DNA from: a bacterium
Lineage (GTDB): Bacteria; BMS3Abin14
DNA: 64,000 bases
Assembly (NCBI GenBank): GCA_020350725.1
Contig: CP070719.1
Coordinates: forward strand, 2,316,516 to 2,380,515
Direction of reading: 5' to 3'
The position numbers were made by a program, and so were the translations under genes. Positions 9,867 through 19,208 of the stretch are shown one piece after another; positions within the stretch are counted from its first letter, which is position 1, and every line of letters starts with the position of its first letter. The notes below the pieces were generated by a model. It searched no databases, had not been told where the DNA came from, and saw only the letters and a list, made by a program, of their open reading frames with translations.

Positions 9867-9980
9867 ACGCACCCGCACGGAGGTTGGCAGACACATCCCC
9901 GTGCATGCGGTCGACCACCTCGTGGCCCGGGACAACCTCCTTGGAAGCATATTCTGCCGGGGAGCGGGGAGTCGGTGCCG

Positions 9981-10889
9981 ATGATCCTGTCTGTGGGTGA
10001 AATCCTTTTCGACCACTTTCCGGAATACCGGCGCGTCGGCGGGGCCCCCTTCAACTTTTCCTACCACGTGAAGAAGCTGGGCTTCCCCGTCAGGTTCATC
10101 ACCCGCGTCGGCGATGATCCCGAGGGTCGGAACCTGAAGGGCCTGCTGCGAAAGAACGGTTTCACAGAGGCAGACCTTCAGGTGGATGGACAGTATCCTA
10201 CCGGAAGCGTGGTCGTCACCCCGGCCGGCAAAGGCCTCCACTCTTTCGAGATCCTTGCCGATGTCGCTTTCGATCACCTGGAAGCCAACACCGCTGTCCT
10301 GTCGATCCTGGACCAGAGTCCGAGGCTGGTTTACTTCGGCACCCTCGTCCAGAGGACCGAACCGGGAAGGCGGTTCATGGGGAGGATCTTCTCGAGAGTA
10401 CAGGGGGAGACCCGGCTCCTGTGTGACATCAACCTGCGGCCAGGGTGCTACACCCGTGAAACGGTGGAAGAGTCCCTGAGGAGGGCCGACATCCTGAAAC
10501 TTAACATCGAGGAATTGGAGGAGATCGCCGCCATGCTCTGGAGCGATCCAGCCCCGGATCACCCCTGCCAGCGTCTGCGGGAGGAATTCGGGATCGAGCT
10601 GATCTCCCTTACCAAGGGCGAGGCCGGAAGCGAAATTTTCAGCCAGGAGGGCAGATTCACCATCGGTCCATCACCGGTGCCGGCCATGGAAGATACGGTG
10701 GGTGCCGGAGATGCCTATTCGGCCGTCCTGGCCATTGGATATCTGACGGGGTGGGATCCTGACAGGATACTGTCCGTCGCCTCCAGATTCGCCGCCGATA
10801 TATGCGGATCGGCAGGGGCCCTCCCCGAGGCGGATTCGTTCTATAATGAATACAATATACTCTTCAGAGGTGAAGGCAATGGCAGTTGA
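9981..10889 (+). CDS. PfkB-family carbohydrate kinase, probable fructokinase
   Basis: Ribokinase/PfkB-fold sugar kinase of 302 residues. The N-terminus has the family GEILFDHFP...VGGAPFNFSYHVKKLG motif, where the GGAP..F sugar-binding loop is typical of fructokinases, and the C-terminus has PfkB signature 2, DTVGAGDAYSAVLA, with the catalytic Asp and anion hole. ATG 9981 is preferred to the GTG at 9975 because the GGAGCGGGGAG sequence is spaced correctly only for the ATG. The last 11 nt overlap the start of the sucrose-phosphate synthase gene, so the two are translationally linked. In this setting it would phosphorylate the fructose released by sucrose synthase and return it as fructose 6-phosphate. 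Confidence 0.85.
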   Translation: MILSVGEILFDHFPEYRRVGGAPFNFSYHVKKLGFPVRFITRVGDDPEGRNLKGLLRKNGFTEADLQVDGQYPTGSVVVTPAGKGLHSFEILADVAFDHLEANTAVLSILDQSPRLVYFGTLVQRTEPGRRFMGRIFSRVQGETRLLCDINLRPGCYTRETVEESLRRADILKLNIEELEEIAAMLWSDPAPDHPCQRLREEFGIELISLTKGEAGSEIFSQEGRFTIGPSPVPAMEDTVGAGDAYSAVLAIGYLTGWDPDRILSVASRFAADICGSAGALPEADSFYNEYNILFRGEGNGS

Positions 10890-13065
10890 TGGTCTTTACA
10901 TACAGATGTTCAGCATTCACGGGCTTGTCAGGCATGAAAATCCCGAGATGGGAAGGGATGCCGACACGGGCGGACAGATCAAATACGTCCTGGAGCTGTG
11001 CCGCTACCTCGCCGGCCATCGATCCGTCCGGCAGGTCGATCTGTTCACCCGTTTTATCGACGACAAGATCCTGTCGGACGATTACACTGTCCCGATCCAG
11101 GAGGTTGAAGAGGGTTTTCGCATCGTGCGCATCCAGTGCGGTGGGAAAAAGTACATGAGAAAGGAGCTGCTCTGGCCCCATCTCGACGAATACATCGACA
11201 AGACCATCAGATTCATCAAGCGTGAGAACGCCATTCCCGATGTCGTCCACGGCCATTATGCGGACGCCGGCTACGTGGCCATGCAGCTGTCCAGTTCCTT
11301 CGGGATCCCCTTCGTGTTTACCGGCCACTCCCTCGGCCGGGCCAAGAGACAGAAATTGCTCGACGATGGCCTCGAGTCGGACGAAATAGAGAGAAAATAC
11401 AGGATCGATCACCGCATAAGAGTGGAGGAGAATATCCTTCGAAACGCCGATCTCGTCATCACGAGCACTCACCAGGAGGCCGAGGAGCAGTACGGAATGT
11501 ACAGGTTCCACGAGGCTCCCCGGTACCAAGTCATCCCGCCGGGATTGGATGTCGATATCTTCTATCCCTTTTACCGTGACATGGTCGAGGAGCAGGAACG
11601 CTCTGACGTGGCCCTGCACACCAGGGCCTCCATCTTTCAGGAGCTCAACCGGTTCTTCGTCACACCCGACAAGCCCCTTATCCTGGCACTCTGCAGGCCT
11701 GACAAGCGCAAGAACATCTCCGGGCTGATCCATGCGTACGGGGAGGACAAGGAACTACAGACAATGGCCAACCTCGCCATCTACGCAGGGCTTCGAAAGG
11801 ACATCAGCGAAATGGAGGACAACGAAAGGGAGGTCCTGACAGAGATGCTGCTGCTCATGGACAAATACGATCTCTACGGAAAGATGGCCATCCCGAAAAA
11901 ACACGATTTCGAGCACGAGGTCCCCGAACTCTACAGGATAGCGGCCCAACGCAAGGGAGTGTTCGTCAATCCGGCCCTGACGGAGCCTTTCGGCCTGACC
12001 CTTCTCGAGGCGGCGGCGGTTGGCCTGCCTGTCGTGGCGACGAACGACGGAGGACCCAGGGACATCTTCGCGAACTGCGGATGCGGGCAGTTGATCGACC
12101 CGACCGATGGAAAGAAGATCGCCGCCGCCATCCGGAAAGTCCTTGCCGACGGGGAGAGGTGGGAGCGTTTCTCCAAGAACGGGATCCTGAATGTGAGGAA
12201 GCATTACACCTGGATAAGCCACACGAAGACGTACATGGAGGAGATCAACGATCTCCTCGAAGAGGCGAAAACGTCCGTGAAGCTGAGCGATATTCCCATG
12301 GACCCCATTGGAAGGAGACTCGCGGGTCTTAACCATTTCATCATCACGGACATCGACAACACCCTCATCGGCGAGGACAATTCACGGTTGGCGGAGTTTC
12401 TCGAGATCGTCAGGGAGAACCGCAGCAGGATAGGCTTCGGTGTGGCCACCGGCAGGTCTCTCGAGTCAGCAGTTCACTTTCTCAAGCAGCATAAGGTCGA
12501 AGGGCTGGACGTCATCATCTCCTCAGTCGGGTCGGAGATCTACTACGGTGCCGGCAATCAGCCTGGCATCGGATGGAGGACCCATATCTCGAACAAGTGG
12601 GACCGGAAAAGGATCAAAGGCCTCCTCGATGGCCTGCCCTTCCTCGAGTACCAGGAGGAGGCAAACCAGCGGCCCTTCAAGATCAGTTACAACATGGCAG
12701 CCGACCGGGACCACCTCGCCTCGGTCCACGACCTTCTCCTCAAGAACAAATGCCCGTACAGCCTCATCTATTCCCACCAGAAATACCTGGACATCCTCCC
12801 CTATCGCGCCTCCAAGGGCAAAGCCATTCGCTATCTCAGTTACAAATGGGAGATCCCCCTGGGCAATTTTCTGGTGTGCGGTGATTCGGGCAATGACGAG
12901 GAGATGCTCCGCGGTGAACCGAAGGCTGTCGTCGTGGGCAACTACAGCCCTGAACTGGAGAAGCTCAGGGGGCGCAGGAAAATTTTTTTCGCCACCAAAG
13001 TCAATGCAGGTGGTATTCTGGAGGCCCTCGAACATTACAATTTCCTGAAGGAAGTAAATCCCTAA
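10879..13065 (+). CDS. Bifunctional sucrose-phosphate synthase / sucrose-phosphatase
   Basis: A 728-residue cytoplasmic enzyme. The N-terminal two thirds are a GT4 glycosyltransferase of the sucrose-phosphate synthase type: FSIHGLVRHENPEMGRDADTGGQIKYVLEL, VVHGHYADAG, FTGHSLGRAKRQKLL, CRPDKRKN and the E-x7-E motif in NPALTEPFGLTLLEAAAVGLPVVATNDGG. From about residue 475 follows a HAD-type sucrose-phosphatase domain: nucleophile motif ITDIDNTLIG, a Lys in the RASKGKAIRYL segment and the acidic CGDSGNDEEML. Together these convert UDP-glucose plus fructose 6-phosphate to sucrose 6-phosphate and then sucrose. The ATG at 10879 follows GAGGTGAAGG and overlaps the kinase gene; the frame upstream to 10846 is within that gene. 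The sucrose synthase gene starts 4 nt after its stop. Confidence 0.92.
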   Translation: MAVDGLYIQMFSIHGLVRHENPEMGRDADTGGQIKYVLELCRYLAGHRSVRQVDLFTRFIDDKILSDDYTVPIQEVEEGFRIVRIQCGGKKYMRKELLWPHLDEYIDKTIRFIKRENAIPDVVHGHYADAGYVAMQLSSSFGIPFVFTGHSLGRAKRQKLLDDGLESDEIERKYRIDHRIRVEENILRNADLVITSTHQEAEEQYGMYRFHEAPRYQVIPPGLDVDIFYPFYRDMVEEQERSDVALHTRASIFQELNRFFVTPDKPLILALCRPDKRKNISGLIHAYGEDKELQTMANLAIYAGLRKDISEMEDNEREVLTEMLLLMDKYDLYGKMAIPKKHDFEHEVPELYRIAAQRKGVFVNPALTEPFGLTLLEAAAVGLPVVATNDGGPRDIFANCGCGQLIDPTDGKKIAAAIRKVLADGERWERFSKNGILNVRKHYTWISHTKTYMEEINDLLEEAKTSVKLSDIPMDPIGRRLAGLNHFIITDIDNTLIGEDNSRLAEFLEIVRENRSRIGFGVATGRSLESAVHFLKQHKVEGLDVIISSVGSEIYYGAGNQPGIGWRTHISNKWDRKRIKGLLDGLPFLEYQEEANQRPFKISYNMAADRDHLASVHDLLLKNKCPYSLIYSHQKYLDILPYRASKGKAIRYLSYKWEIPLGNFLVCGDSGNDEEMLRGEPKAVVVGNYSPELEKLRGRRKIFFATKVNAGGILEALEHYNFLKEVNP

Positions 13066-13069
13066 GACC

Positions 13070-15478
13070 ATGACACAGACCAACCTTTTGACGAGTATTA
13101 TCAACGACGAGGACCTCGGTGATTTCAGGGAATGGCTGGCCCGGCTGTCCGGCCGGGAAAAAGGCCTCTACCTGCGGAACGACGTCATCCAGATGTTCAA
13201 CAGCTACTGCGATGACGCGAAAAAGGGAGAGACTTTTCGCCGGGATTCATCGATCGCTCAGTTCCTTAAAAAGGTCCAGGTCCTTTTCCCATCCGGCGAT
13301 CACATCGTGGTAATGCGCAGACACGATATCGCACGGTATCGTTTCTTCCTCATCCGTAAGGACGGTGATTACATCGAGGAGACCACCCTGCCCCGGTTCC
13401 TGGACCTTCAGAACACCTTTGTCTGTCAGGACAGGAACGGAGACAAGCATCCCCACATCGATTTCCTGCCCTTCTACCGTTCTGCACCCTCCATCCGGGA
13501 CAGACGTTCCATCGGCGGAGGGATCCGTTTCCTCAGCCGTTACCTGAGCAGCAGGCTCTTCAGTCAGCCGGATGAATGGAATCGAAAGCTTTTCGATTTC
13601 ATGAGGATCCAGAGGATCGACGGAAGAAGCCTGATGGTCAATGAGGCCATTATCGACAATCTGGAGCTTTTCGCCGAAAGACTGCAGGGGGTCCTGGAGA
13701 AGATGAGGACCATGGATGCCGAGACCCCCTTCAGGGAAGTCGAGGCCGTTCTGGCCGAGGAGGGGTTCGAGGCGGGTTGGGGCGATACGGTGGGCCGGAT
13801 CGCCGACACGATGGGCATCCTGCTGGACCTTATTCACGAGCCGGACGACCAGCTGCTGGAGGATTTTATCTCCAGGGTGCCCATTCCCCTTATCTCCAGG
13901 ATCGCGATCATCTCACCGCACGGCTGGTTCGGCCAGACGAACACCTTCGGCAAACCGGACACGGGAGGACAGGTGATCTACATCCTCGACCAGGTCAGGG
14001 TCCTGGAAAGACATCTGAGGAAACTCCTGCGTTCCTCGGGTCTGGATGTCGAGCCCCAGATCCTGGTTCTGACCCGTCTTATCCCCGAAGCGGGCGGTAC
14101 GACCTGTGATCAGAGGCTGGAGAAGATCTTCAACACGGATAACTGCTGGATCCTCCGCGTCCCCTTCCGGGACGAACGGTTCAATATCATCAAGCACTGG
14201 ATCTCCCGCTTTCAGGTGTGGCCCTACCTGGAGAATTTCGCCGAGGACGCCGCCCACGAGTTGGTCGGCATGTTCCAGGGTTACCCGGATCTGGTCATCG
14301 GCAATTACTCCGACGGCAACCTCGTCGCCTCCCTGCTCTCGGACCGCTTCGATGCCATCCAGTGTACCATTGCCCATGCTCTGGAGAAACCGAAGTACCA
14401 CCTTTCAGACGTTTACTGGCAGGAAAAGGAAGAGGAATACAACTTCTCCATTCAGTTCACGGCGGATATCTACTCCATGAACAAGTCGGACTTCATCATC
14501 ACCAGCACCCTTCAGGAGATCGTCGGAACCGAGGATACGATGGGACAGTACGAATCGTACCAATTCTTCACCATGCCGGGCCTCTACCAGGTTCACGGCG
14601 GGGTCAACATATTCGATCCCAAATTCAACGTCATTCACCCGGGTGTCGATGAAGAGCTCTACTTCCCCTACTACCGGACGGACAGCAGGGTCCAGAGTGC
14701 GAAAGACAAGCTCGAGCACCACATCTTTCAGGAGAGTTCGGAGGACATCTTCGGCGAGCTTGAGGATGCCGACAGAAGGCCCATATTCACCATGGCCAGG
14801 TTCGACAGGATCAAGAACATCACGGGGCTCATCGAAGCCTTCGGCATCAGTGAGAAGCTGCAGGAGAGCTGTAACCTGATCTTTGCCGCGGGGACCATTC
14901 ACTCGGACAACACCACAGACTATGAAGAGAGGGGCGAGATAGAAAGAGCCCTGGATCTTATCGAACGGCACAGCCTCAACGGTCGGATACGCTGGCTCCC
15001 CAGCATCAATAAGCTCGATACCGGCGAGGCGTACCGGATCATGGCCGACCGCGGCGGACTGTTCGTCCAACCTGCCCTCTTTGAAGCCTTCGGCCTCACC
15101 ATCCTCGAGGCCATGGCGTCGGGACTGCCCACTTTTGCCCCGAAATTCGGCGGCCCCCTCGAGATCATCGAATCCGGTGTCAACGGCTTCCTCGTGGACA
15201 CCAGCCGCCCTGAGTTCATCGCGAGGGCGGTCGAGGGGTTCATCGATCGCGCCCAGGGAGACGGTGATCACTGGAAGAGAATATCGGAGAGGGGGATCGA
15301 GCGGGTCCGCGAGGGTTTCAACTGGCAGAGGTACAGCGAACGCCTCATCAACCTGACCAAGCTTTACGGCTTCTGGAGACATGCCGTTTCCGGACAGGGC
15401 AACGACGAGGTGGACCGGTACTCAGATCTGATCTACCACTTTCTGATCAGGGAGAGGGCGAAGAACCTCGCACGGTGA
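13070..15478 (+). CDS. Sucrose synthase
   Basis: An 802-residue GT4 enzyme of full plant/cyanobacterial sucrose-synthase length that reversibly interconverts sucrose plus UDP (or ADP) with UDP-glucose and fructose. The N-terminal regulatory half lacks the glycosyltransferase fold. The catalytic half starts at about residue 275 with AIISPHGWFGQTNTFGKPDTGGQVIYILDQVR, followed by GNYSDGNLVASLLS, TIAHALEKPKYHLSDVYWQEKEEEYNFSIQFTADIYSMNKSDFIITSTLQEI, and the E-x7-E motif in QPALFEAFGLTILEAMASGLPTFAPKFGGPLEII. It starts 4 nt after the synthase/phosphatase gene, so fructokinase, SPS-SPP and sucrose synthase form one tight operon covering both synthesis and turnover of sucrose. Confidence 0.95.
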   Translation: MTQTNLLTSIINDEDLGDFREWLARLSGREKGLYLRNDVIQMFNSYCDDAKKGETFRRDSSIAQFLKKVQVLFPSGDHIVVMRRHDIARYRFFLIRKDGDYIEETTLPRFLDLQNTFVCQDRNGDKHPHIDFLPFYRSAPSIRDRRSIGGGIRFLSRYLSSRLFSQPDEWNRKLFDFMRIQRIDGRSLMVNEAIIDNLELFAERLQGVLEKMRTMDAETPFREVEAVLAEEGFEAGWGDTVGRIADTMGILLDLIHEPDDQLLEDFISRVPIPLISRIAIISPHGWFGQTNTFGKPDTGGQVIYILDQVRVLERHLRKLLRSSGLDVEPQILVLTRLIPEAGGTTCDQRLEKIFNTDNCWILRVPFRDERFNIIKHWISRFQVWPYLENFAEDAAHELVGMFQGYPDLVIGNYSDGNLVASLLSDRFDAIQCTIAHALEKPKYHLSDVYWQEKEEEYNFSIQFTADIYSMNKSDFIITSTLQEIVGTEDTMGQYESYQFFTMPGLYQVHGGVNIFDPKFNVIHPGVDEELYFPYYRTDSRVQSAKDKLEHHIFQESSEDIFGELEDADRRPIFTMARFDRIKNITGLIEAFGISEKLQESCNLIFAAGTIHSDNTTDYEERGEIERALDLIERHSLNGRIRWLPSINKLDTGEAYRIMADRGGLFVQPALFEAFGLTILEAMASGLPTFAPKFGGPLEIIESGVNGFLVDTSRPEFIARAVEGFIDRAQGDGDHWKRISERGIERVREGFNWQRYSERLINLTKLYGFWRHAVSGQGNDEVDRYSDLIYHFLIRERAKNLAR

Positions 15479-16148: not shown

Positions 16149-16506
16149 GGTATGGGTGTCATGAAATAGGTCCCGAGTTCAGGTCCCGTGTCTATAGTCC
16201 CAGGCCGGCCCCAAGCCTGCCGAGGGTTCCAGGTGCCATGCCCCAGGTCCTCATGTGGTCCAGAGGCGAGGGAGGGAAAACAGCCCAAGGTTAAAGGTTC
16301 AACGGGCAACGGAAGACATCGTCCGCGTTATCGCTTTTTGAGCTCATACTGCGAACCGTGAACCGGAACCTGTCCTCCGATCCTGCATTCCCGATGCCCA
16401 ACCTCCAATATCCACTCTCCAATATCCACTCTCTAATATCTAATGTCTAATGTCTGATGTCCAATGTCCAATGTCCAATCCCAAATCTCTGCCCCATCTC
16501 CGACAT
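16149..16506. repeat. Repeat-filled spacer (family A, long array)
   Basis: Positions 16401-16480 are an 80-bp run of 7-9 bp units such as TCCAATATC, TCTAATATC, TCTAATGTC and TCCAATGTC, the reverse-complement orientation of the family A repeat. Upstream, 16160-16370 contains words like GTTCCAGGTGCCATG and CTGCGAACCGTGAACCGG that recur in other spacers of the window. No gene is supported. Confidence 0.6.
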
Positions 16507-17352
16507 CTACTCCCTGTAGTCATAGTCGCTCTGGAGGGTTTCGTCCATAAGAGCCGTGAGGCGGTCGAGGTGTTTTCTTTCCTCGTCGGACAGGCTGCGA
16601 AAGACACTCCGGGAGGGTTCATCCTCAACGATGTTGAGCATCTTGATATATCGATCGTAGGCGTTCGTCTCCAGGGCCAGGACGATGTCGAGGACCTCCT
16701 CCAGCGGCTTTCCCTCCACCCAGTGAAGGGTTCCGTCCAGATCCATTCCGCCCTCCAGGAGAGGAGGTCCGCCCTGGGCCAGGTCGGGCATATCCTGTTT
16801 TCCCGACAGGTCACGGAAAAGGTCCACCAGGGTCGCCTTGTGGCTCTCCTCCGCCTCTGCCAGGCTCTGAAACAGGGCTGAGGACCTGGAGTCGGGCACC
16901 AGACCGGAGAGGGCGAGGTAGAATTTTCTCGTGTTTTCCTCCATGGTCCAGGAGATCGCCGCCATCTCGGCGGGATTTCCCGCGGCCTCGAACTGGGAGA
17001 GCCCCGCATCTGCCGGACCGTCAGCAACCAGCCCCTCCCAGGCGTGAATGCCTCCGGACATGCTGACAACGGGATTATAGCCAAGCCTTTTCAGAACGGC
17101 CGCAGCGGCACGGCTGCGGATTCCCGAGGCTCAGTATGCGATGGTGGGCCTGGAGGGATCGATCTCGCCGGCCCTGGTCTCGAGTTCCGCCATCGGGATG
17201 AGCCGGGAACCCGGAAGGTGTCCCCTCTCGTACTCAGCGGGCTGGCGAACGTCCACCAGATTGTATTCCTCCGGTGAGTGTTCCCGGAGGAATCTGCGGA
17301 CCTGATCGGCGGACCATGCTTCGATCGGTTTGAAGTAATCGGCTATGGGCAT
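16507..17352 (-). CDS. Probable selenoprotein: rhodanese (Sec74) fused to a ferritin-like diiron domain
   Basis: Read from 17352 to 16507 this is one 281-codon frame interrupted only by TGA at 17133-17131 (codon 74). Residues 1-100 are a single rhodanese domain: FKPIEAWSADQVRRFL, NLVDVRQPAEYERGHLPGSRLIPMAEL, PTIAY, then TGA, then ASGIRSRAAAAVLKRLGY and MSGGIHAWEG. The TGA replaces the catalytic Cys of the C-x-x-G-x-R-S loop. Residues from about 118 form a rubrerythrin-like domain with both diiron halves: MEENTRKFY and EESH, then LETNAYDRY and EERKH. A hairpin 11 nt after the UGA (separate entry) meets bacterial SECIS rules. I infer selenocysteine insertion, giving a sulfur/selenium transferase or peroxidase-like redox enzyme. 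The alternative is a broken gene or sequencing error; against it, both sides keep full conservation. It lies 105 nt downstream of the SelD-N-terminus-like oxidoreductase on the same strand. The start ATG 17352 follows GGAGGAACC. Confidence 0.8.
17100..17119 (-). promoter_or_regulatory. Bacterial SECIS-like hairpin after the in-frame UGA
   Basis: On the minus strand, 11 nt after the UGA, CCGCAGC (17119-17113) pairs perfectly with GCTGCGG (17106-17100) around the six-base loop CGTGCC. The apical loop begins 18 nt after the UGA and has G as its second base. Known bacterial SECIS elements have a small apical loop about 16-37 nt from the UGA with at least one G in its first two positions, so this fits. 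It lies within coding sequence for RSRAAAA, which itself is GC-rich, so chance pairing cannot be excluded. Confidence 0.65.
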
Positions 17353-17457: not shown

Positions 17458-18636
17458 TTATCGACTGCTGAATTCAGGGGAGCGCTGGATATTCCCCAGC
17501 TCCTCCTCCAACTCCCCCGATACCTGGTACCTTTTCATGAACCTCCGGTCTATCCAGTCCTTGAGGCGAAAAGCAAGACGGCCTTGGTATATCCATTTCC
17601 CCTTCCGCAGGATACCTGTCCCGTCCCCCATGTTCAGGATGAGAAGGAAGGACGGGCTGCCGGGTTCGAAAACCGTAAGCGGTGTCCCCTCCAGGGATGC
17701 CAGAAGGTTGTGGAAGAGGACCGGGTTCTGACGGACCGCGTAGACGCCGACTCTGGCCAGGGGGTCGCCCTCAAGGGTGACACAGTCGCCGCCGCCGAAG
17801 ATCTCCGGAAAGTCGACGCTCTGAAGGCGGTTGTTCACCAGGAGTCCCCCGTCATCGCCTGCAGGGACCTCCGTGTTGCGGAAAAGGGAACTCGGTTTCA
17901 CCCCAACGGCCACGAAGGTGATGAGGCTGTCGATGGCCTGCCCGTCCTCCATCTTCACACTGCCTGCGGTGATCTCTTCTACGGGGACATCCTCGTGGAT
18001 GGCAACACCCCTTGATGCCAGGGATTCAAACGCCAGATCCCGTACCCTTCGGGGCAACCTTCCCAGCAGCTTCCCCCCCGTCAGAAGGGTGATCCTGGAG
18101 GGCCTCTGGAGACGCTGAGTCAGGGCCCAGACAGACCCGGCGAGTTCCACTCCCGCCGGTCCTCCTCCCACCACACAGACGGCGATCTCCTCCCCGGCGG
18201 GCTGGTCGCGATGGAGGGCCTCAAGGGCCAACCTCCCCCTGAGAAGGTTCTCGATGGGCTTAACGGTAAATATGTTTCGGCCCTCCCGGACAATGCGTCC
18301 GGTGGGAACTTCGCTACCGATGTTGAAGGACACGGTATCGTAAGGGATCGTGATGCCCGACGCGAGGACCAGCTCCTTCTCACGGGGGCGGATGTCCTCG
18401 ATCCGGTCCTCGATGAAACGGCCTCCGCGGTCAACCACCATCTTGCGGATGTGGAAGCGGATCTGCTGGGGGCGGTAATGACCCGAGACCATACCGGGGG
18501 CCATTCCGGAATAGTAATGATAAGGGGACGGGCCGACGACGGTCACCTGGTGGCCGCGCGAGGTGATCTCACCGGTTCGTAACAGGGTCGTGAGGTGGGC
18601 ATGACCACCTCCTGCCAGCACCAGATGGCGGCCCAT
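17458..18636 (-). CDS. FAD/NAD(P)-dependent oxidoreductase of the SelD-N-terminal-domain family
   Basis: A 392-residue two-dinucleotide-fold flavoprotein. The N-terminus MGRHLVLAGGGHAHLTTL carries the FAD GxGxxx-type site in the GGGHAHL form characteristic of the family found as the N-terminal half of fused SelD proteins (TIGR03169, Nterm_to_SelD, also close to NDH-2). Other blocks are YYSGMAPGMVSGHY, PYDTVSFNIGSEVP, the second nucleotide motif VCVVGGGPAGVELAGS, and the C-terminal FAD contact IFGGGDCVTLEGDPLARVGVYAVRQ. There is no CxxxxC redox disulfide and no SelD kinase domain. It lies directly upstream of the probable Sec-rhodanese gene, so a joint role in selenium or sulfur redox chemistry is a reasonable inference, not proof. 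The ATG has GGGAG about 10 nt upstream. Confidence 0.82.
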   Translation of the reverse strand: MGRHLVLAGGGHAHLTTLLRTGEITSRGHQVTVVGPSPYHYYSGMAPGMVSGHYRPQQIRFHIRKMVVDRGGRFIEDRIEDIRPREKELVLASGITIPYDTVSFNIGSEVPTGRIVREGRNIFTVKPIENLLRGRLALEALHRDQPAGEEIAVCVVGGGPAGVELAGSVWALTQRLQRPSRITLLTGGKLLGRLPRRVRDLAFESLASRGVAIHEDVPVEEITAGSVKMEDGQAIDSLITFVAVGVKPSSLFRNTEVPAGDDGGLLVNNRLQSVDFPEIFGGGDCVTLEGDPLARVGVYAVRQNPVLFHNLLASLEGTPLTVFEPGSPSFLLILNMGDGTGILRKGKWIYQGRLAFRLKDWIDRRFMKRYQVSGELEEELGNIQRSPEFSSR

Positions 18637-19208
18637 GGTCGAAGGTCTCCCGGGATCGCTTTCTTGTTAAGAAGGAAATGTCCTGTATATGGAAAAAGGG
18701 TAGCAGCTGCCGATGGGATGTCAATGGGGTGGCAAAATGGAGATGGGGGGTTAGAGATTGGAGATTGGACATTGGATATTAGAGATTAGATATTAGAGAG
18801 TGGATATTGGAGATTAGATATTGGAGGTTGGGCATCGGGAATGGAGGATCGGAGGACAGGTTCCGGTTCACGGTTCGCAGTATGAGCTCAAAAACCGATA
18901 CCGCAGCCGATGTCTTCCGTTGCCCGTTGCAACTTGACCCTTGGGCGGTTTTCTGCTCCCTTGACGCCGGCCTCCAGACTCAGGCCGGGGCCCAGACGCC
19001 AGGGAAGACGGGACGAGGAGACGGGGGGGGCGGGTGGGGGAACGCGGGAGAAGAAGCGGCAGTCATTGCGAGCCGATATCCAGGTGAAGCAATCCCAGGG
19101 GAGATCTCGGACGATAACGTCTTCCTGCTCTCCGGACATCCCCCGGGACACCTGGTATTCTGTATAATTAACTGCAGAGCGAGAATACAAATGGAGGAGC
19201 AGCGCTGT
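18637..19208. repeat. Repeat-rich spacer: family A array plus a REP-like GTCATTGCGA element
   Basis: Positions 18739-18830 are a family A run (GAGATTGGAGATTGGACATTGG-like units). At 19062-19096 is one copy of the dispersed element that starts GTCATTGCGA and ends GGTGAAGCAATC (family C). A TATAAT at 19163-19168 is a likely -10 for the small-gene operon that follows, without a good -35. A longer open frame from 18807 crosses these repeats and is not credible as protein. Confidence 0.6.
19062..19096 (+). repeat. Family C repeat copy (solo)
   Basis: GTCATTGCGAGCCGATATCC followed by AGGTGAAGCAATCCC. It is preceded by AACGCGGGAGAAGAAGCGGCA, similar to the sequence before the copy at 29.8 kb. Confidence 0.6.

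Follow-up and report, generated by a model that had tools for sequence, protein, structure and literature searches.

Read on the minus strand of the window, by which we mean the whole 64,000-nucleotide stretch of bacterial DNA analysed, the locus very likely encodes one protein of 281 residues in which a selenocysteine (Sec) rhodanese is fused to a ferritin-like diiron domain (Table 1); a reading that rests on comparison between homologues, there being no biochemical, transcript or read-level data. The 281-codon frame holds a single TGA, in the context ...TIAY-U-ASGIRSRAAA..., and thus contains a UxxG motif (U-A-S-G) at residues 74–77. In the readthrough protein, the match to PF00581 runs across the TGA (71.2 bits; cut-off 22.2) and is followed in frame by one to the rubrerythrin-family PF02915 (49.5 bits; cut-off 22.8). 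The proposal of an earlier note, made before any database had been searched, that one frame carries a TGA at the catalytic Cys of a rhodanese and then continues into a ferritin-like domain, is upheld by both the frame reading and Pfam. Mechanical ORF calling returns a 184-aa ORF here (17061–16507); the same note expected ordinary gene calling to split the locus into two genes. Directly upstream, on the same strand, lies a gene for a flavoprotein.

Table 1. Features of the rhodanese–diiron fusion locus, in window coordinates
Feature	Coordinates	Strand	Remarks
FAD/NAD(P)H oxidoreductase, NDH-2-like	17458..18636	(-)	Nearest NCBIfam model TIGR03169 (Nterm_to_SelD), below cut-off
Rhodanese + ferritin-like diiron fusion selenoprotein gene	16507..17352	(-)	281 residues; UGA74 very probably read as Sec; ATG start, TAG stop
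Rhodanese domain (PF00581), residues 26–106	17035..17277	(-)	Pfam and fold matches
In-frame TGA (codon 74), standing in for the catalytic Cys of the rhodanese loop (Y-U-A-S-G-I-R-S)	17131..17133	(-)	Frame reading and homologues
SECIS-like hairpin, 7-bp stem, loop CGUGCC (17112–17107)	17100..17119	(-)	Loop starts 18 nt after the UGA
Ferritin-like diiron domain (PF02915), residues 133–269	16546..16956	(-)	Pfam; ligands E138, E168, H171, E228, E258 and H261; fold

Neither an Rfam family nor a tRNA was found in the 64-kb window. A degenerate tandem repeat of 7/14 bp (TCCAATATCCAATG / GAGATTGGATATTG) occurs at 16404–16479 and again at 18738–18831, flanking the pair formed by the flavoprotein and fusion genes. 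Further off, two long consecutive genes on the plus strand (10846–15478) follow an ORF at 9975–10889; by eye, and with their families unchecked, we take the former to be a sucrose-phosphate synthase and a sucrose synthase, and the latter to be sugar-kinase-like.

An AlphaFold2 model of the fusion (mean pLDDT 85.7, pTM 0.81) recovers both folds: that of a rhodanese, with matches including 3tp9 and CoADR-RHD, and a four-helix diiron bundle, best matched by 2fzf (Z 18.5, rmsd 2.9 over 153 residues). Across the 99 members aligned, Sec and Cys forms alike retain the rhodanese-site residues R36 and R79, and the six iron ligands listed in Table 1 are nearly invariant; with the fold recovered as well, the claim that both diiron halves are present also stands. 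Conservation of the ligands for a six-ligand diiron site in the second domain is thus shown, the iron itself is not. There is no second conserved Cys across the 99 members, and a Pfam scan finds no rubredoxin domain in the fusion. Residue 231, which we take to be the position of the extra helix-C Glu ligand of classical rubrerythrin (three residues after the first Glu), is Ala here and in 83 of the 99 rows, the rest having Ser, Gly or a gap; the aligned rubrerythrin row has Glu at the equivalent position. For this reason we file the second domain as ferritin-like diiron, rather than as a rubrerythrin in the strict sense.

In the first homologue search, of 12 genomes from the window's phylum, members of another three genera proved to carry this TGA, at 44–51% identity. 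A scan of GTDB contigs brought further members, in records named Syntrophobacterales, Syntrophobacteraceae and Desulfuromonadales, and a profile search (E <= 1e-40) of 395 genomes, drawn from the phylum of one of these GTDB-scan members, found the fusion in 105; most, but not all, of the profile-search loci were fetched for the reading of codon 74. A second phylum search, centred on genome G016, returned largely the same genomes and nothing new. Reading codon 74 in the fused homologues, some 100 in all, gave TGA 37 times (the window not counted), TGC 51 times, TGT 10 times and GGC twice; Cys thus stands at this position in 61 of them and Gly in two, and roughly a third of the members read use Sec. 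(Four rows do not cover the codon, and one Cys row, L028, is a distant rhodanese and not a clear member.) The TGA-bearing members have exactly one TGA each within the match, always at codon 74, and no homologue has a TGA elsewhere; frame and length are conserved across members of the fusion. Such a pattern is the classical one for selenocysteine, and is unlike that of sequencing error or gene decay.

The obvious objection is that the TGA is a real stop (whether by sequencing error, in a pseudogene, or between two genes), leaving a truncated rhodanese and a separate ferritin-like protein begun at an internal ATG. The 184-aa ORF speaks for this, as does the lack of read-level confirmation for the window TGA. 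Against it, the TGA sits inside the rhodanese domain, at the catalytic residue; 37 other members share it and 61 have Cys instead; and the hairpin described below is nearly confined to TGA forms, a specificity not to be expected of recurrent error or decay. Separate genes in homologues would have refuted the earlier note, but in the full-length homologues the two halves share a single frame, whose codon 74 is TGA or Cys, or in two cases Gly; and whilst we have no read data, an error at read level is very unlikely given the same TGA at 37 other loci. It is on codon 74 across the family that we reject the stop-codon and split-gene readings, and the rival as a whole is all but excluded.

Some individual homologues deserve mention in their own right. 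Two Desulfuromonadales members (L033, 3998–4819; L035, 2108–2929) combine Gly74 with Ser at R36 and keep all six iron ligands; their rhodanese site is likely dead, as inferred from sequence alone, and their existence means that the iron domain can persist without the nucleophile. In L026 (~1490–2034, genome G001), the ferritin-like half comes almost immediately after the flavoprotein gene, and no rhodanese half is present, through either a real deletion or the assembly. L037 and L040 lie on the bin676 chromosome (CP070682.1), where a further N-terminal piece of the gene, near-identical and ending in Ns, is found ~100 kb away; possibly an assembly duplication.

Eleven nucleotides after the window TGA begins the hairpin CCGCAGC-CGUGCC-GCUGCGG, its six-base loop having G as the second base; the description given in the earlier note (7-bp stem, 11 nt, six-base loop, second base G, 18 nt) holds base for base. 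Its claim that the hairpin meets the rules for a bacterial SECIS (bSECIS) also holds: these ask for a loop 16–37 nt from the UGA, a G in the first two loop bases, a stem of 4–16 bp and an MFE of at most -7.5, and the window hairpin offers 18 nt, G at the second base, 7 bp and -18.3 kcal/mol (over a 48-nt stretch). Saying this, the hairpin taken alone is not beyond chance, either against dinucleotide shuffles (z -1.04, with 35 of 200 as good) or against synonymous-codon shuffles (p = 0.09), and as stand-alone proof of Sec we have dropped it.

Its significance emerges only by comparison across homologues. Taking for each gene the top-scoring hairpin within 48 nt downstream of codon 74, with a G required among the first two loop bases, we find a stem of >= 5 bp with a loop start 18–20 nt after the codon in 36/38 TGA genes versus 4/61 Cys genes; the scores of the two groups differ (Mann-Whitney p = 4e-11), and resampling of synonymous codons within each gene gives a combined p of 3e-16 for TGA genes versus 0.35 for Cys genes. 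Pairing registers vary among the TGA genes, with loop starts at 18–19 and at 20, such that the hairpin is kept while the paired bases differ. Phylogenetically independent pairs give 6.3 for and 0.5 against an association of hairpin with Sec, at a median p of 0.07; this is suggestive only, and it follows that the small p values above lean on related genes.

In an unrooted tree of 99 members, built with column 74 masked, the Sec, Cys and Gly states require 16 changes, at least nine of them forced by well-supported branches; hence Sec and Cys have swapped places repeatedly, the direction not being given by unrooted counts. The window gene belongs to a four-member clade (SH-aLRT 92), all Sec and all from the window's phylum.

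Absence of all Sec machinery from the genome was a further result that would have refuted the earlier note; selA, selB, tRNA-Sec and selD are all there. The host genome of the window, a single contig of 2.78 Mb rated 100% complete, encodes a tRNA-Sec whose anticodon is TCA (74.2 bits), SelA (599.7 bits) and, adjoining it, SelB (367 bits). SelD is itself a Sec gene, with its own in-frame TGA in a G-U-A-A-K loop that matches UxxK, the motif catalogued for SelD (PMC13188914). The organism is therefore equipped to decode UGA as Sec and, taken with the codon-74 and hairpin comparisons, decoding at UGA74 of the fusion is very likely; the comparative support is strong, but there is no biochemical proof and selenium has not been shown in the protein. 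As an aside, the C-terminal part of the host SelD (L011, C1:1315718-1316350) is lost in a run of Ns, despite the genome being one contig.

SelA is encoded in 33/33 TGA-bearing genomes tested, and also in 44/47 Cys-bearing ones; SelB falls below the cut-off in three genomes, with fragmented or gapped matches. As a discriminator between Sec and Cys forms, the presence of SelA/SelB is uninformative, nearly all genomes encoding them.

The upstream flavoprotein gene, like the Sec/Cys/Gly exchange, went unmentioned in the earlier note. Its product reaches 253 bits of the 310-bit cut-off for TIGR03169; solved relatives are the NDH-2-type YjlD and FSP1/AIFM2. C285 is its only invariant Cys, and at the threshold used the gene is single-copy in the host genome. 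A homologue adjoins the fusion gene in 28 loci (20 upstream, 8 downstream), always codirectionally, and is seen with both Sec and Cys forms; the occurrence of both orders suggests that the two genes work as a pair, and not merely that one arrangement was inherited. We consider the flavoprotein a likely functional partner of the fusion, an inference from linkage. In most loci with enough flank, however, no such gene lies next door, so that the flavoprotein may act from elsewhere or be unneeded. A second recurrent neighbour, codirectional and adjacent, occurs at L062, L066, L069, L077, L080, L092, L097 and L100; by eye, we take it to be a membrane protein of the fatty-acid hydroxylase/sterol desaturase family.

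The family of the neighbouring flavoprotein also makes a serious rival of selenium supply (PMC4561486). Here the same selenoprotein would be a selenium supplier: the Sec rhodanese would carry perselenide and, with a flavoprotein of the SelD-fusion type, feed reduced selenium to SelD. In its favour, the nearest model to the neighbour, TIGR03169, describes a domain N-terminal to SelD; the commonest SelD fusions are those to an NADH-dehydrogenase-like domain (PMC4561486); and nearly all genomes bearing the fusion encode SelA. Against it, SelD is not among the recurrent neighbours of the fusion gene, the fusion is absent, at the threshold used, from 290/395 sampled genomes of the phylum, and the diiron site is left unexplained. 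On balance we think this rival unlikely.

Our own working model is of a two-component, NAD(P)H-driven persulfide/peroxide reductase that would protect the cell in sulfane-sulfur or oxygen stress. UGA74 would be decoded as Sec by the host SelA/B/C/D, aided by the adjacent SECIS hairpin, and Sec74 would serve as the catalytic nucleophile of the single rhodanese domain; inferring from the family, we expect it to take up sulfane sulfur, or to undergo oxidation by peroxide, in the form of Se-S(H) or Se-OH. The attached four-helix domain is predicted to hold a six-ligand diiron site, which may reduce peroxide or oxygen, or share electrons with the Sec site. Because the fusion has no other conserved Cys and no rubredoxin, electrons would have to come from outside, and the codirectional NDH-2-like flavoprotein is the best candidate to deliver them from NAD(P)H, as inferred from linkage. 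Sec and Cys would be interchangeable nucleophiles in this scheme. The activity is an inference and the substrate is unknown; we hold persulfide/peroxide reduction to be the likeliest of the activities considered, but still less likely than not. Likewise, the Sec persulfide/selenide transferase or peroxidase, wired to a diiron site, that the earlier note envisaged is not shown as an activity by any of our findings. Bolder still, though possible, is that the protein represents a selenoenzyme of a new type, in which Sec-bound sulfane sulfur (or selenenic acid) and the diiron centre, on the same chain, would form one catalytic system supplied by an NAD(P)H flavoprotein dedicated to it.

It is also possible that the same selenoprotein is simply a peroxidase, with Sec reducing H2O2 or organic peroxides, the diiron site acting as a second sink for peroxide or oxygen, and sulfur transfer abandoned. 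Rubrerythrins have peroxidase activity, and the second domain matches PF02915; in addition, most uncharacterised selenoproteins are considered likely redox enzymes in the catalogue review (PMC13188914). Against this, R36 and R79 are kept in both Sec and Cys forms, which argues for retained binding of an anion or of sulfane sulfur, and where classical rubrerythrin has its extra helix-C Glu this protein has Ala231.

Whatever its activity, the fusion brings to the prokaryotic selenoproteome an architecture of two domains and two cofactors, and one that is common in the sampled phylum (105/395 genomes), the arrangement being shared by dozens of related bacteria. Ordinary gene calling would break its Sec forms into two pieces, with the active site lost. 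With many natural Sec and Cys alternatives and two Gly forms on one scaffold, the long-standing question of why selenium repays its cost becomes directly testable, and the recurring flavoprotein ties the NADH-dehydrogenase-like domain known from SelD fusions to a second selenium-related gene.

As the earlier note stated, rhodanese-like selenoproteins have been reported in metagenomic selenoproteome surveys; what it did not mention is that UxxG rhodanese-like forms (2 and 4, represented by MBM9537886.1 and MCY3690685.1) are already in the 2026 catalogue (PMC13188914). These resemble the present protein in that a rhodanese domain has Sec as its catalytic residue, within a UxxG motif (here U-A-S-G); unlike it, they are given no ferritin or rubrerythrin domain, and indeed the words ferritin and rubrerythrin are absent from both that catalogue and a 2022 review (PMC9312934). 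A search of the open-licence literature, subscription papers being outside its scope, returned nothing on rhodanese and rubrerythrin with Sec or as a fusion, nor on a ferritin-like diiron selenoprotein, and no NCBIfam model reaches its cut-off on the fusion protein. What is new is the combination of Sec rhodanese, diiron domain and linked flavoprotein, with the proviso that a catalogued UxxG representative may be the same fusion, described by its rhodanese part only. TsoB (NF045694, a rhodanese/DsbD fusion-like protein) is likewise a selenoprotein with a rhodanese domain; the fusion scores only 24.1 against its cut-off of 805, however, and TsoB as catalogued has two Sec and a different partner domain (PMC13188914). 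The LYCAU rhodanese model, NF041203, gives at most 28.5 of 115 with homologues of the fusion.

Ferritin-like diiron proteins and rubrerythrins (PDB: 2fzf, 1vjx, 3qhb; PF02915) share the four-helix bundle with its two E..ExxH halves; to this the fusion adds a rhodanese, lacks a rubredoxin, and has Ala231 in place of the extra helix-C Glu of classical rubrerythrin. As working analogues, the NADH-dependent persulfide reductases (PMC7969121) and the persulfide dioxygenase–rhodanese fusion come closest. In the former (Npsr/CoADR-RHD; PDB: 3nta, 3icr; PMC7969121), as would be the case here, a rhodanese acts together with a flavoprotein from the pyridine nucleotide-disulfide oxidoreductase superfamily, and the rhodanese folds match; there, however, the two form one chain, whereas here they are encoded by separate adjacent genes, the flavoprotein has C285 as its sole invariant Cys, and the rhodanese carries (predicted) Sec and a diiron domain. 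The latter, BpPRF (PDB: 5ve3), is similarly a rhodanese fused to an iron protein; its iron domain is a dioxygenase of the metallo-beta-lactamase fold and it has no Sec, the fusion described here having a four-helix diiron bundle instead.
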